A DNA stretch of 44,487 nucleotides, from NCBI GenBank assembly GCA_903842025.1, contig CAIMKX010000040.1, positions 1 to 44,487 of the forward strand, read 5' to 3'. This DNA comes from an uncultured bacterium. Its GTDB lineage: Bacteria > Patescibacteriota > Minisyncoccia > Phycocordibacterales > PALSA-1337. Both the position numbers and the translations under genes were made by a program. This document shows, one piece after another, positions 15,012-40,455 of the stretch (position 1 is its first letter; the number at the start of each line of letters is the position of its first letter). The notes below the pieces were generated by a model that saw only the letters and a program-made list of their open reading frames with translations, was not told the origin of the DNA and did no database searches.

Positions 15012-15054
15012 GTGAATACTATTACATATTTGTGTTGTAGTTACAAGTTTCCCA

Positions 15055-15218
15055 GAGGAACCTCCTACTTTCTTATTGCATCACGACGATAATTTGCGAC
15101 CAATGTACTGTTGTATTTTCCAAAGGCTGAGTGAATCCCTGGAGCGAAGCCTTTGTGAAAATACCAGTACATTGGGAGCAAAGTCGGAGGGATGCAATAA
15201 GAAAGTAGGAGGTTCCTC
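15055..15218. ncRNA. 164-nt rod-like hairpin between rpmH and dnaA
   Basis: Positions 15055-15082 and 15191-15218 are perfect 28-bp inverted repeats. Inside, an asymmetric bubble (18 and 16 nt) is followed by CAATGTACTG/CAGTACATTG, GTATTTTC/GAAAATAC and AAAGGCT/AGCCTTT stems and a 19-nt loop. The layout (long closing stem, central bubble, long upper stem) resembles a 6S-type rod RNA, but no clear promoter or terminator flanks it. Strand unknown. It could instead be a DNA structure linked to the origin or a mobile palindrome. A reading frame across it is open but looks spurious. Confidence 0.45.
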
Positions 15219-15286
15219 GTATTCGAGCCAGGCTGATCGTGTCCGAGAAAATACAAGTGCAGAGGTTTGTGTGCACTATAAACACC

Positions 15287-35200: not shown

Positions 35201-35221
35201 GTGCGCCCAGCTGGATTCGAA
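35201..35221. other. Left attachment site (attL)
   Basis: 21 bp identical to 40381-40401. Weaker resemblance to the tRNA continues to about 35238 (AGC, then GACCCTCT). Confidence 0.85.
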
Positions 35222-35394: not shown

Positions 35395-36018
35395 TTATAC
35401 CTCTTTTCGGATCTTCATCTTCCAACTATCTATATTAATAAGGTCAACTGTTCCTTGTTTGTGTTTCTTGATAATATCTTTCAATCTTGTAGATAAACGC
35501 TTGGTATTTAGGCCAGGCTTTTTGATTCCAGTATTTGATGAAACGATGTAGACTTTCGTACCCTTTCCCACAATCCTATCAACCAGGTAATCAAAATCTC
35601 CATCGCCGGTAAATATTAGGAATTCCTTGTCTGGGCCAGCTTCTTCCATGGCGTCAACGGTTAGATCAACATCACAATTTGATTTGCGGTTATAACCCAT
35701 ATCTACGACCTCAGCATTTTCCTTACCACATGCAACACACTTTATCGAAATAGTCTTATCAGTTTTCTTGTATGAGAAAACCGTCCTAGTTTTGACGATA
35801 CAACCAGCTTTTCTCAATGATTCAAATTCATTGGCAGTTTCGTCGTCGCCTTCGTCAATGCCAGAGTAGTAGAATACTTTCTCACACTTCCATTTGTCTG
35901 TGAGATACGAATAAAGCTTGTGCCAATCAATCAGAAAGCCGAGCAACTTACGGGTAGTGCTTGCAGTGTTTTGAACATCAACGAAAGCATAGCGCTTTTT
36001 TGGTTTGGTGACTGGCAT
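35395..36018 (-). CDS. NYN domain (LabA-like/PIN-fold) putative ribonuclease
   Basis: 207 aa. The PIN-like NYN fold is shown by FVDVQN (first Asp), SNCDVDLTVDAM (central acidic pair) and FTGDGDFDYLVDRIVGKG (last acidic motif), the expected metal-binding set. An inserted CVACGKENAEVVDMGYNRKSNC stretch has CxxC and a further Cys, possibly a partial zinc site. Such proteins are metal-dependent RNases, often in defence or RNA turnover. It is the first cargo gene at the left end of the tRNA-Lys island. A TACAAT box lies 7 nt before the ATG. Confidence 0.85.
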   Translation of the reverse strand: MPVTKPKKRYAFVDVQNTASTTRKLLGFLIDWHKLYSYLTDKWKCEKVFYYSGIDEGDDETANEFESLRKAGCIVKTRTVFSYKKTDKTISIKCVACGKENAEVVDMGYNRKSNCDVDLTVDAMEEAGPDKEFLIFTGDGDFDYLVDRIVGKGTKVYIVSSNTGIKKPGLNTKRLSTRLKDIIKKHKQGTVDLINIDSWKMKIRKEV

Positions 36019-36069: not shown

Positions 36070-37281
36070 TTAGTTTATCGGTGCCCTTTTCCATTTTATT
36101 AAAATAACTAAACCGATAATCACGAACAAGGTCATTGACACCATCGCGATACGATAACTTGTATGTTGTATTCCTAATCCAGCAATAATACCACCCCAAG
36201 CTAAAGGACCTAGTAATGTCGCAAATCTTTCAAATAGAGTATAAAACGAGAATCCGTAACCAAGATCTTCCTTCCTTAACAATTTACTTAAATATGCCCT
36301 TGTTACAGTCCAAACAGATCCTATAAGCGAACCTACTAAAATCGAATAAATGGATAAAGATACCAACCCTTTTGATGAAGCAATTAAAGGGATCAAGATT
36401 ATCCAACCCACTAAAATATATTTTAATGTTTTGAGTTCACCAATTTTATCCGCGATTCGGCCGGAAACTAGGCCCCCTATGGCGGACATCAATAAGATAC
36501 CCATTAGTAAAATATTCTTTGTCATGTCGGCTACGGCAAAAACCCTTTCCATATATATGGGGTAGTTATTTGAGATGGTTATGAGTGCATCATTAAAGAA
36601 AAAGAATGACACAAGCATCGGTACCGCAATTGAAACCGAAAAGAAGGCAACAATTTTTTTAAAATATTCCTTCCCACCGTCTTTTAAAGTATTGATGTTA
36701 ATTTTCCTTTCTTTTGGCTTGCTATCTTTAAAGAAGATCATCATTGGTAAAGCAAGTAGAATAAAAATAGCCAATGAAGGAAACAACGGTTGCAATCTAC
36801 TAGCTGACAAAGGTATGGCTATAACAAGACCGATCACTTGTCCTAAGCTATTTGAAAATTGTCCGATACCCGAAGCTCTCGCTCGGTGTTCAATGTCCGC
36901 AACATCTTCAATTAATGTATTGTAGAATACAAACGATAGCTGATAGAAATACTGTCCAATTAAAAAGCAAAGAGTAATTATAAAAATATTTTGTGCCCCT
37001 AAATATGCAAAAACTGTCGCAAGACCATAACCCAAAAAAGTTCCTATCGTAGCGAAGTTAAGTAGATATTTTCTTCCTCCATGTTTATCTGTAAATGCGG
37101 CTAAAGTAGGAGCGGAGAGAAACAATAATATTGAAGTAATTGCAAAGATTGCATTGTACCAAAAATCTGAAAGCCCGCCGTTAACAACCATCCACTGAGA
37201 AAAATATAATAGAAAATTTATGAAAATTATCGAATTGGCGAAATCATATAAGGACCAATAAAAGAGTTTTTTCTTATTCAT
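36070..37281 (-). CDS. MFS transporter, UMF1/Atg22-like
   Basis: 403 aa with about 12 membrane helices. The beginning FYWSLYDFANSIIFINFLLYFSQW matches the YDxANS motif of the UMF1 (Atg22-like) branch of the major facilitator superfamily, and TDKHGGRKYLLN is the loop 2-3 signature. Substrate unknown; amino acid efflux is described for Atg22 relatives. Cargo of the island, with TA-rich codon use. No frameshift. Confidence 0.85.
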   Translation of the reverse strand: MNKKKLFYWSLYDFANSIIFINFLLYFSQWMVVNGGLSDFWYNAIFAITSILLFLSAPTLAAFTDKHGGRKYLLNFATIGTFLGYGLATVFAYLGAQNIFIITLCFLIGQYFYQLSFVFYNTLIEDVADIEHRARASGIGQFSNSLGQVIGLVIAIPLSASRLQPLFPSLAIFILLALPMMIFFKDSKPKERKININTLKDGGKEYFKKIVAFFSVSIAVPMLVSFFFFNDALITISNNYPIYMERVFAVADMTKNILLMGILLMSAIGGLVSGRIADKIGELKTLKYILVGWIILIPLIASSKGLVSLSIYSILVGSLIGSVWTVTRAYLSKLLRKEDLGYGFSFYTLFERFATLLGPLAWGGIIAGLGIQHTSYRIAMVSMTLFVIIGLVILIKWKRAPIN

Positions 37282-37720
37282 ACGATACTAAATGTTATAG
37301 TTTGAATCCCTTGCTGGTTCAACCATTGTAGCATGTTTAAGATATTCACAATCCATATTCGCCTCCCGTTCTACCGCCTTTGGAGGGTAGGTGGTGCGCG
37401 TGACGCTTGGTAGATAAGGGCGCGTTGACCTCCGCCCGTTACCACTAAATCCATTCGCGCCTAGCTCATGTTGGCATGGCGAGAGCGGCCGACTGTCTGT
37501 GCGTTACAGACTGTCGGGTAAGCGGAGCCATGCGAACAGGAGCGTAAGGCGCGCCACATACCCTATTAGGGCGGAGGTGTACGCGCCCGTACTCTCTACT
37601 ACCAAGCGCACTCGTGCAAGCGGCCGCGCACGACCTGCCCGGAAAAGGCGGTTGGATCGGGAGGCGCCATAGTCCCCCGAATTTGGTATCGCTTTTTATT
37701 CTAAGGTGTAAAATTAGCTA
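37282..37720. other. GC-rich giant imperfect palindrome (about 37360-37666) in gene-free region
   Basis: CGCCTCCCG (37360-37368) pairs with CGGGAGGCG (37658-37666). Moving inward: CCGCCTT with AAGGCGG, the GGGTAGGTGGTGCGCG and CGCGCACGACCTGCCC arms, CGCTTGGTAG with CTACCAAGCG, GGCGCG with CGCGCC, ACCTCCGCCC with GGGCGGAGGT, CGCGCCT with AGGCGCG, CATGGC with GCCATG, and CCGAC-T-GTCTGT with ACAGAC-T-GTCGG around GCGTT. About 307 nt in all, much richer in G+C than its neighbours. No open reading frame of note. Could be a structured RNA, an origin or a recombination structure. Confidence 0.85.
37709..37714 (+). promoter_or_regulatory. -10 box upstream of island gene
   Basis: TGTAAAAT, ending 6 nt before the ATG at 37721; no Shine-Dalgarno sequence. 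Confidence 0.45.
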
Positions 37721-38404
37721 ATGCACGCCGATTACATCAAAGTCATGGAGATCATCAACTTCAAGCTTCAGAAATTTTGGACTGATCATCCGGGCAATTT
37801 AGAGAATTTTCTACCTCCGGAAATAGACATCACTGAGGAAGATCTCAAAGAAGTAGGTATCAATAGATATGCTTGTTCAACCTGCTTAGAACATTTGAAA
37901 CTCAAAAATTATCTGCAAATCGATTATGTCCGCGACCACGAAAGCATTCTTAACATGGATCATGAACAAATCGATGAACCATCTTCTGTTATTTTCCATC
38001 TTTCAATTTCAAGAGAAATCTTGCCTTTAATCGAGCGCTACAAACTAGGTAAAGTTGAAGACATCCCAAGGGGCGTATCATTTGATTGCGAGAAAAGCAT
38101 TTTGAAGATCGGCGATAAATTGGTCCATATCCAACAGAAGAACGACAAACCGAACAGCCATTACATTCTTGAATACATTTTCGAGAATCCGGATGGCCTC
38201 GAAGCTAAATCATACTATTCTGAAATTATTGACGATAAATTTCATGATGAACACCTAATACAACGCTCAATGTGGCGAGCCTGTGAAGCGATCAATGCCA
38301 AGGTCTCAAAACAAGCGGGGATTAGTAATTTTCTTTTGATTACATCTGGAAAGACGGGCTATGTTCAGATAAATCCAGAATATCTCGAAACCACAATTTC
38401 ATAA
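37721..38404 (+). CDS. Island protein of unknown function
   Basis: 227 aa, cytoplasmic. N-terminal helical part with a CSTC pair (ACSTCLEHLKLKNYL), a central acidic region, and a C-terminal segment (DDKFHDEHLIQRSMWRACEAINAKVSKQAGISNFLLITSGKTGYVQIN) that looks like a winged-helix DNA-binding fold. A regulator of the island is possible. I do not recognise a family. It follows the giant palindrome by 54 bp. Confidence 0.65.
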   Translation: MHADYIKVMEIINFKLQKFWTDHPGNLENFLPPEIDITEEDLKEVGINRYACSTCLEHLKLKNYLQIDYVRDHESILNMDHEQIDEPSSVIFHLSISREILPLIERYKLGKVEDIPRGVSFDCEKSILKIGDKLVHIQQKNDKPNSHYILEYIFENPDGLEAKSYYSEIIDDKFHDEHLIQRSMWRACEAINAKVSKQAGISNFLLITSGKTGYVQINPEYLETTIS

Positions 38405-38425: not shown

Positions 38426-38465
38426 CGGGTACAATCCGGTAAAAGAACTGGAATAGCATGTGCTC

Positions 38466-38669
38466 ATGCAACACCGGTTTAACGAAAAACTTATTACGAG
38501 GCTCCAGACATACTGGAAAACCCGCACCGGCGAGGATATTTCTGATGCTACGGCAAATGAATATCTTAATTCATTTGCCGATCTCTACGAATCATTCCTA
38601 GAGTTCGCCAATCCGAAATATGATGCATTTTCAATCACTGGAGAGCGTCCCGTCCAGCCAACGCTTTAG
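38466..38669 (+). CDS. Small helical island protein
   Basis: 67 aa. RFNEKLITRLQTYWKTRTGE followed by DATANEYLNSFADLYESFLEFA, a compact helical unit of a kind I have seen as short hypothetical proteins in CPR genomes. A GTG six bases earlier is an alternative start. The 3' end and stop lie inside a 12-bp hairpin (38644-38655 with 38676-38687, AGCGTCCCGTCC type). Function unknown. Confidence 0.55.
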   Translation: MQHRFNEKLITRLQTYWKTRTGEDISDATANEYLNSFADLYESFLEFANPKYDAFSITGERPVQPTL

Positions 38670-38687
38670 CGCGGCGGACGGGACGCT
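38644..38687 (+). terminator. Hairpin at end of small island gene
   Basis: 12-bp perfect stem AGCGTCCCGTCC / GGACGGGACGCT around a 20-nt loop that contains the stop codon. No T-run follows, so it may stabilise rather than end the message. Confidence 0.5.
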
Positions 38688-38718
38688 GTGTGACTTGCTG
38701 TATAACTAACGTAAGACT

Positions 38719-38926: not shown

Positions 38927-40420
38927 ATGAAATATATTCTCTACTGTCGAAAATCAACAGATACCGAAGACAAGCAAGTGTTGTCTCTAGAATCGCAGGA
39001 AAAAGAGCTGACTGATCTGGCTAAAACTCAAGGCATTGAGATCGTGCAAACCTTAACTGAAAAGAAATCAGCCAAAGCACCCGGCCGCCCTATTTTCAAC
39101 GAAATGATCGCCATGATCTCTGCCGGCAAGGCTGATGCTATTATCTGCTGGAAAATAGATCGTCTTACGAGAAATCCTGTTGATGGTGGTCAAATTCAGT
39201 GGCTATTACAGACTGACAAAATCAAGTGCATCCGGACATTTGAGAAAAGCTATTTCCCGTCTGACAATGTGCTTCTGATGAGCATAGAACAGGCTATGGC
39301 TAACCAGTACATCCGTGATTTGAGTACGAATGTGAAGCGTGGTAACAGAGCTAAAATGGAACATGGTGGCTGGCCTAGCCGCGCACCATTTGGATATGTA
39401 AATGATCGTGGCACGAAAACCATCAAGATCGACAAGAAAGTATCACCCTACATCATCCGAGCTTTTGAGCTATATGCTACAGGCGGCTACAGCGTTAAGC
39501 AAATTTCCGACATTTTATATAACGAAGGCCTACGAACTACATCCGGTGGCAAGGTCTGCAAAAATCAGATACACAGGAATCTATCTCACAAATTCTACAT
39601 GGGGCTAATGGAAAGAGACGGTAAGATATATGAAGGCAAGCATACGCCACTTATTTCAAAAGACCTATTCGACAAGGTTCAAAATGTTCTCACTGGCAAA
39701 CTACACCCTAAGGTCAAAAAGCATTTCTATTCAGCCCGCGGCTTCTTAACATGTGCCTCCTGCGGCTGCGCTCTAACTTGCGATACCAAAAAAGGCTTCA
39801 AGTATTACTACTGCACTAACGGCAAAGGTAACTGCGAGGAACACAAAAAATACATGCGCTCAGAATACATTGACGGACTCATCTCACAGAAATTCCTAGA
39901 CCTAAAGATCGACGAAGAAATGATTGCTATCTCCGGAGAAGCTTACAATGTCAAATACAATGAGCAGGCAGACCGTACCAGATTACCTCTGGAAAACCTC
40001 TCCAATGAGCTCAATCTGCTCCTAGAAAGAGAGTTGACCCTCACAGACGGCTATAGCTCCAAACTTATCCGGGAAGAAGTCTACAAGCTCAAGCTACAGG
40101 AGATTGAAAACAAGCGTGTGGAGATCAAGAAACAGATGCGAGATATTCAAGCCAAATCCGGACCAACAGTTGCTACTTTCGAACAGATAAAAAATGTATT
40201 CCTAGACGGCAACAAAGCCTCGGCTAGATATTTAGTGGTTGATGACCAAGAAAAGCGAAAGATGCTAGAAAAGTTACTTTCGAACGCTTCGATCAAAAAT
40301 AAAACCGTGGCTCAATATCAATTCAAAAGTCCTTATTCTGCTCTCGCAAAAGCACCTAAAAACAACGATATCAAACTAATGTGCGCCCAGCTGGATTCGA
40401 ACCAGCGACCCTCTGCTTAA
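38927..40420 (+). CDS. Large serine recombinase (integrase of the island)
   Basis: 497 aa. Resolvase domain (1-145) with YCRKST (catalytic Ser10), SLESQEKEL and the IDRLTRN motif; recombinase domain (about 150-265, PFGYVNDRG, YSVKQISDILYNEG); zinc ribbon about 280-330 (CASCGC ... YYYCTNGKGNC); coiled coil about 345-410. These are all the parts of a large serine integrase. The last 13 residues (MCAQLDSNQRPSA) are read from the tRNA-Lys gene antisense, so its present C-terminus was made by integration. In the excised circle the frame would run on for 27 other residues. Confidence 0.93.
   Translation: MKYILYCRKSTDTEDKQVLSLESQEKELTDLAKTQGIEIVQTLTEKKSAKAPGRPIFNEMIAMISAGKADAIICWKIDRLTRNPVDGGQIQWLLQTDKIKCIRTFEKSYFPSDNVLLMSIEQAMANQYIRDLSTNVKRGNRAKMEHGGWPSRAPFGYVNDRGTKTIKIDKKVSPYIIRAFELYATGGYSVKQISDILYNEGLRTTSGGKVCKNQIHRNLSHKFYMGLMERDGKIYEGKHTPLISKDLFDKVQNVLTGKLHPKVKKHFYSARGFLTCASCGCALTCDTKKGFKYYYCTNGKGNCEEHKKYMRSEYIDGLISQKFLDLKIDEEMIAISGEAYNVKYNEQADRTRLPLENLSNELNLLLERELTLTDGYSSKLIREEVYKLKLQEIENKRVEIKKQMRDIQAKSGPTVATFEQIKNVFLDGNKASARYLVVDDQEKRKMLEKLLSNASIKNKTVAQYQFKSPYSALAKAPKNNDIKLMCAQLDSNQRPSA
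40381..40401. other. Right attachment site (attR) in tRNA-Lys 3' end
   Basis: Identical to 35201-35221. It covers the acceptor and T-arm 3' half of the tRNA, so insertion leaves a functional tRNA. Confidence 0.85.
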
Positions 40421-40455
40421 AAGGCAGGTGCTCTACCGGGCTGAGCTATGGGCGC
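40382..40455 (-). tRNA. tRNA-Lys (anticodon TTT)
   Basis: Read on the reverse strand: GCGCCCA acceptor, GCTC/GAGC D stem, anticodon loop CTTTTAA (anticodon TTT), variable loop, GCTGG-TTCGAAT-CCAGC T arm, TGGGCGC acceptor and discriminator A. The first anticodon-stem pair is a C-A mismatch. CCA is not encoded. It is the integration target of the island; the other copy of its 3' end lies at 35201. Confidence 0.95.

Follow-up and report, generated by a model that had tools for sequence, protein, structure and literature searches.

A giant strand-specific hairpin in integrative elements of Patescibacteria as a candidate single-strand origin

The window (the whole stretch of DNA analysed here, 44,487 nucleotides) contains an integrated mobile element, and this element carries a giant non-coding hairpin whose fold is under selection, on one strand. 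With moderate confidence, we read this hairpin as an origin resembling the single-strand origins (sso's) of rolling-circle replicons, belonging to an integrative rolling-circle element whose excision, nicking, replication and second-strand synthesis are all inferred. A sequence-only reading of the window had listed a large structured RNA, a replication origin (single-strand or rolling-circle) for the excised form, and a recombination site as candidates; of these, the second is the one that our analysis singles out, specifically as a single-strand origin.

The giant hairpin and the element around it

The imperfect palindrome of about 307 bp with a small loop, as first described, is borne out by folding in both its arms and its coordinates. 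Positions 37360-37666 form a single rod of 108 pairs with a loop of 3-5 nt, and its MFE is -188.9 kcal/mol versus -125.1 +/- 5.1 for shuffles (z -12.6; 0/100 shuffles equal it). The conserved unit, which is our candidate single-strand origin, is a little longer (37358..37673, + strand, about 310 nt), and its most widely shared part is the inner domain (37452..37563, + strand; alignment A6, model R1), with a core of the CATATCGGTATGG / CCATACGGATATG type. It also holds that this is a GC-rich palindrome in an AT-richer island (61.7% GC versus 39.3% in the remainder of the element), with no gene inside and with its 3' end 54 nt ahead of the ATG at 37721. Being non-coding and strongly structured as ssDNA, the hairpin meets one criterion for an sso.

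No sigma-70-like site, -35/-10 pair or terminator was found in the hairpin, and promoters of Patescibacteria may differ from the sigma-70-like type. We found no known sso sequence or promoter-like sequence in it, and a comparison with plasmid and phage records, known sso types included, gave no meaningful match. Single-strand origins are host-specific, and sequence likeness to known types is not what defines them. In Rfam, the hairpin has no match at gathering score, and the sole match with E<5 falls outside it. At 37450-37466, 17 nt match antisense 23S rRNA exactly; only two hairpins share this, the window copy included, and it is probably due to chance.

Elsewhere in the window, at 15050-15225, lies a second large and unrelated hairpin, with a near-perfect 28-bp outer arm and a z of -10.8 for the region. 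It occupies the interval from rpmH to the presumed start of dnaA, by the likely chromosomal origin (these genes were named from sequence reading only).

An exact 21-bp direct repeat, GTGCGCCCAGCTGGATTCGAA, occurs at 35201 and 40381, and the copy on the right forms the 3' terminus of a tRNA-Lys gene that is overlapped by a gene for a large serine recombinase (LSR); the island is therefore an element that has integrated here, 5,180 bp long. The left copy, attL (35201..35221, + strand), is the left end of the element, and attR (40381..40401, + strand) lies inside the integration target, tRNA-Lys (TTT; 40381..40455, - strand). The LSR (38927..40420, + strand; PF00239, PF07508), whose 3' end overlaps the tRNA gene, matches the integrase family phrog_95 with an E of 4.5e-73. 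An LSR together with a duplicated tRNA 3' end as direct repeats meets the criteria for a tRNA-targeting serine-recombinase integrative element, and the predicted attP junction of the excised form is AATGTGCGCCCAGCTGGATTCGAATAGCTT. Another element, L043, likewise has tRNA repeats (20 bp), and other sister elements have short repeats or none. The holA - tRNA-Lys - SpoU neighbourhood is common to other species, with the content between holA and the tRNA differing or absent, and a related element (L321, in genome G001) occupies the same tRNA. A clean pre-insertion site with a matching left flank was not found.

Two cargo genes on the - strand lie between attL and the hairpin. These encode a protein with an NYN domain (35395..36018; PF01936, E 1.2e-13) and an MFS transporter directed away from the hairpin (36070..37281; PF07690, E 3.1e-27). 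In genome G015, of another species, a region 88% identical to the NYN cargo (L280:2767-3561) lies directly beside tRNA-Lys, without the rest of the element. On the other side of the hairpin are C8, a 227-aa protein (37721..38404, + strand) whose homologues adjoin Rep in other taxa, and a small conserved ORF (38460..38669, + strand; 69 aa, cluster 2) with six homologues in sister elements. For the AlphaFold model of C8 (pLDDT 80), Foldseek gave just weak winged-helix matches (PhoB/ToxR-like, E above 0.006). The genes of the element (NYN, MFS, C8, small ORF and LSR) include no Zot-type ATPase, coat or ssDNA-binding gene, and without the first two it does not qualify as an inovirus or inovirus prophage. 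They include no reverse transcriptase either, a lack that the sequence-only reading had already counted against a retron, and the element does not qualify as one.

Selection on the fold and its preferred strand

In an alignment of 16 full copies (A1), 93.1% of the cells pair, two-sided changes are present in 46/86 pairs, and one pair occurs as four pair types. The cells with such changes number 136; shuffles gave 44.5 +/- 5.7, and controls in which the pairing was slid gave 12-27. One copy (L136) has an outer stem of different sequence in which pairing is kept. The evenly spread mismatches remarked upon earlier are real and, moreover, conserved among copies: columns 38/287 are G.G in 13/16, columns 119/181 are G.G in 15/16, and columns 140/158 are T.T in 13/16. 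Such fixed positions argue against mere arm-to-arm correction. One should keep in mind that the copies are related and that some are chimeric (L042), so two-sided change may partly reflect module exchange.

The sequence-only reading had proposed selection on an RNA or ssDNA fold, to be checked by covariation among homologues and to be refuted if these showed no compensatory changes. The changes are many, and together with the conserved mismatches they support that proposal and rule out a recent inverted duplication.

The + strand gives the stabler fold in 19/19 copies, with RNA and DNA parameters alike. Its 1x1 mismatches are mainly of the types GT (37), GG (35), TT (26) and AG (11), versus AC (4), CC (1), AA (3) and CT (2) for their complements. 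The G.T mismatches might arise by deamination where a strand is exposed, but G.G and T.T would not. A double-stranded function would not need a preference for one strand, and this preference disfavours a dsDNA cruciform.

Copies, fixed placement and Rep genes

The source genome has several copies of the hairpin at 82-89% identity, and more are found elsewhere in the genus (the ultra-small Ca. Taylorbacteria). Related islands thus carry it, and the other condition set for refuting the original proposal, an inverted duplication missing from such islands, failed to refute it. When the covariance model of the inner domain (R1) was used for CM search, matches were obtained in 11/34 genomes of the genus; a sample of 397 genomes from the order yielded one more, from a different family. 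Because the copies are mutually related and have exchanged modules, as in the chimeric L042, none of these counts are independent. A 16-nt arm pattern hit 53 loci in IMG/VR, none of which is a true copy by profile, and no hairpin sequence was found there. We found no description of the element family in the open-access literature (subscription journals and preprints not included).

Several related structures deserve mention in their own right. Half-hairpins, mostly the left arm with cargo, occur at L050, L051, L046:3957 and 6072, and L053, and a right half in L097/L224; left-half copies sit at old cargo junctions, as if elements had broken or swapped cargo inside the hairpin. In another family, a hairpin occupies the equivalent position at locus L099 (z -6.5), for which sequence kinship to the giant hairpin is not established. 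Related hairpins in three genomes (L323:5916-6025, L326:2666-2775 and L331:6027-6135) lie by a gene of 193-207 aa with a weak winged-helix match (MarR/IclR-like), and no LSR was seen with them.

The genus has 33 hairpins, and 17 of them have an LSR no more than 4.5 kb away, versus about 3% expected from coverage (binomial P ~1e-17, a value that ignores relatedness). Only two arrangements exist within this distance. In class I (12/12 loci), the LSR follows downstream of the hairpin and shares its strand; in class II, comprising five hairpins, it is 126-166 nt upstream on the opposite strand, and no Rep is recognised. The class II loci, with an inner hairpin and a divergent LSR, are L098:1702-1824, L225, L325, L329 and L330. 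Hairpins that are not near an LSR are mostly cut by contig ends, apart from four assembled loci with neither an LSR nor a recognised Rep. Viewed from the recombinase, 13/13 close (class I) LSRs with the upstream region assembled have a hairpin (one a right half copy, G000:C21), and the remaining six of 19 are cut by contig ends. A fixed orientation relative to origin, rep and integrase, as required of an sso, is therefore met (12/12 class I loci; + strand stabler in 19/19).

The downstream flank of the hairpin is constant among copies. Downstream, some copies have a sense gene and others the 3' end of the antisense gene C3, which excludes the hairpin as a leader of the 227-aa gene. C3 itself could not be accepted as a relative of the LSR zinc ribbon (hhalign probability only 8%). 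On the cargo side, an extended -10 box plus ATG points away from the hairpin in 8/18 copies versus a background of 2.4%, and extended -10 boxes pointing into it are found in 3/18, close to the rate of 10% per 100 nt that background alone gives.

Sister elements encode HUH Reps of the filamentous-phage type from two Pfam families, PF23343 and PF05144. The PF23343 Reps (E down to 4e-21; phrog_3419, rolling-circle initiation) have the HFH motif and conserved tyrosines, and the Rep of the sister elements has weak similarity to RepSA. Two sister elements, in two genomes, instead possess a G2P-type Rep of the unrelated PF05144 family, which among the 34 genomes of the genus occurs only in those two places, beside hairpin and LSR. 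No Rep was recognised among the genes of the window element and L043. The order has related Rep-LSR-tRNA elements in further families too, most of which lack a hairpin of this kind.

Two inovirus-like contigs of ~4.8 kb in IMG/VR, L117 and L118, have terminal repeats of 121-123 bp, Zot (PF05707) and PF23343 Reps close to those of the hairpin elements, and the window's own genome has an inovirus-like prophage with Zot and Rep (L216:7761-11582, on G000:C48). The hairpin is absent from all three, and we rejected it as a shared inovirus feature.

A small hairpin of 42 nt (38645..38686, + strand; GCGTCCCGTCC...GGACGGGACGC, -31.5 kcal/mol), which the 69-aa ORF overlaps, belongs to a candidate double-strand origin (dso). 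Followed by GACTTGCTAGTTAACTAAC, it directly precedes Rep; in the two elements without a recognised Rep, it directly precedes the LSR. The candidate HUH nick site is GACTTG^CTGTATAACTAAC (38692..38710, + strand), and a cut after 38697 is inferred from the motif. GACTTG(A/C)T(A) is present near the Rep start in 22/43 Rep loci, including one circular inovirus-like genome, versus 2.7% of random 200-nt stretches; GACTTG-C/A-TA resembles the nick sites of phiX174/pC194. This separate candidate upstream of Rep disfavours the giant hairpin as the dso. It lies 1,024 nt 3' of the giant hairpin, and if the inferred nick is correct, the hairpin is 5' of the candidate dso on the displaced strand and would be exposed late, after 3,841 nt of the 5,180-nt circle (74% round).

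A candidate single-strand origin and its rivals

The Rep-bearing sisters, the strand asymmetry and the separate candidate nick site single out a single-strand origin. A + strand-specific structure that precedes the candidate nick site and, on the inferred geometry, would emerge late, cargo that changes beside it, and promoter boxes that point outward further favour an sso-like origin, as judged against the published definition (PMC4595007) and placement (PMC5037232) of sso's. The integrative element ICEBs1, with its orientation-specific sso, is a precedent (PMC4595007), and the DSO-gene-SSO model has cargo varying beside the sso (PMC5037232).

In the mechanism that we propose, the LSR integrates the element at the 3' end of the tRNA gene and would excise it as a circle of ~5.2 kb; the att repeats are observed and excision is inferred. 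A filamentous-phage-type HUH Rep would nick the + strand within GACTTG^C/A-TA, immediately 5' of rep, a step for which we have the motif alone; the window element presumably depends on a Rep acting in trans, encoded at one of the five loci of its genome that carry such a gene. On geometry from this inferred nick, the LSR, att and cargo would be displaced first and the giant hairpin would leave the duplex late, ~74% round. By analogy, the folded + strand may then recruit host RNA polymerase or primase for the complementary strand.

Some observations count against an sso. In other families, many Rep-LSR elements have no hairpin of this kind, so it is not universally needed by this replicon type; the class II loci have a divergent LSR and no recognised Rep, and four assembled loci lack both genes; and the hairpin, in which we found no known sso sequence or promoter-like sequence, exceeds the textbook length of an sso. 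We found no hairpin-bearing element in circular form.

The strand-specific fold, the tolerance of G.U and the covariation suit RNA as well as ssDNA, and a structured non-coding RNA from the + strand, e.g., a regulator of element copy number or cargo, is not excluded, although the single-strand origin was singled out over it. We regard such an RNA as unlikely: no conserved promoter leads into the hairpin (3/18, near background), there is no terminator and no Rfam match at gathering score, and a leader would have to precede a sense gene in some copies and antisense C3 in others. In filamentous phages, the signal for packaging is a hairpin on the virion (+) strand, and the filamentous-phage type of the Reps, their relatives in the circular, Zot-bearing L117 and L118, and the inovirus-like prophage in the same genome would agree with a packaging or extrusion signal of a satellite whose ssDNA is packaged by the co-resident inovirus. 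However, that prophage, L117 and L118 all lack a comparable hairpin, hairpin and Zot coincide in only 3/5 Zot-bearing genomes, and IMG/VR has no hairpin sequence, which makes this improbable.

The multiple copies, chimeras such as L042, left halves at old cargo junctions and a few copies without an LSR are what one might expect of a passive dispersed repeat (MITE-like), or of a recombination or cargo-exchange site, kept by gene conversion or template switching. This is already disfavoured, and we give it little credence: orientation and place are fixed relative to LSR and Rep, the downstream flank is constant, and template-switch correction would erase the conserved mismatches and one-strand preference. 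The recombination site proposed from sequence fares no better, with the att sites elsewhere, at the tRNA, 2.2 and 2.7 kb off.

Among known systems, ICEBs1 sso1 and the sso's of RCR plasmids share with the hairpin a non-coding, orientation-specific structure on an integrative element for which rolling-circle replication is known or, here, inferred, with variable cargo alongside (PMC4595007; PMC5037232); a place on the displaced strand, 5' of the dso, would be common to both if the inferred nick is correct. They consist of three short stem-loops, whereas the hairpin is one rod of ~310 nt with conserved mismatches; it also differs in having no match in plasmid records, a Patescibacteria host, an LSR integrase and a function that is inferred. 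The Frpo/ssi promoters of conjugative plasmids (PMC11541004) are likewise long, imperfect, one-strand hairpins, active only as ssDNA, but no -35/-10 pair was found in our hairpin, its element has no conjugation genes and the downstream gene can be antisense; with the -35/-10 criterion unmet in the folded stem, an Frpo-type promoter is not supported. An integron attC was rejected, as the recombinase is of the serine type and not an IntI tyrosine integrase, and att is within the tRNA. Elements of the pSAM2 type also integrate in tRNA genes, and the Rep has its weak RepSA similarity; the pSAM2 integrase is a tyrosine recombinase, unlike the serine recombinase here, and no transfer genes were seen. 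Inoviruses and the filamentous-phage intergenic region share G2P-type Reps (PF23343, PF05144) with the sister elements, and the Candidate Phyla Radiation has known inoviruses, of which some possess a serine recombinase (PMC6813254). Unlike these, the window element lacks genes for Zot, coat and ssDNA-binding proteins, and the inovirus-like genomes that we saw lack the hairpin.

It is possible, though doubtful at present, that the single-strand-origin candidate represents a new class of one-strand giant hairpins specific to the mobile elements of one Patescibacteria lineage, with a role at the ssDNA stage, interchangeable Reps and a cargo-swap junction that leaves half-hairpins. The Patescibacteria form a large bacterial branch, most of it uncultured, whose mobile elements are little described, and combining the mismatch-type strand test with CM search offers a route to more such hairpins. 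If the sso reading is true, an sso can be one long conserved rod common to elements with different Reps, and this would be a further case of cargo exchange beside an sso. The element would then be a compact integrating and replicating unit (integrase, nick site and second-strand origin), and a possible genetic tool for Patescibacteria.
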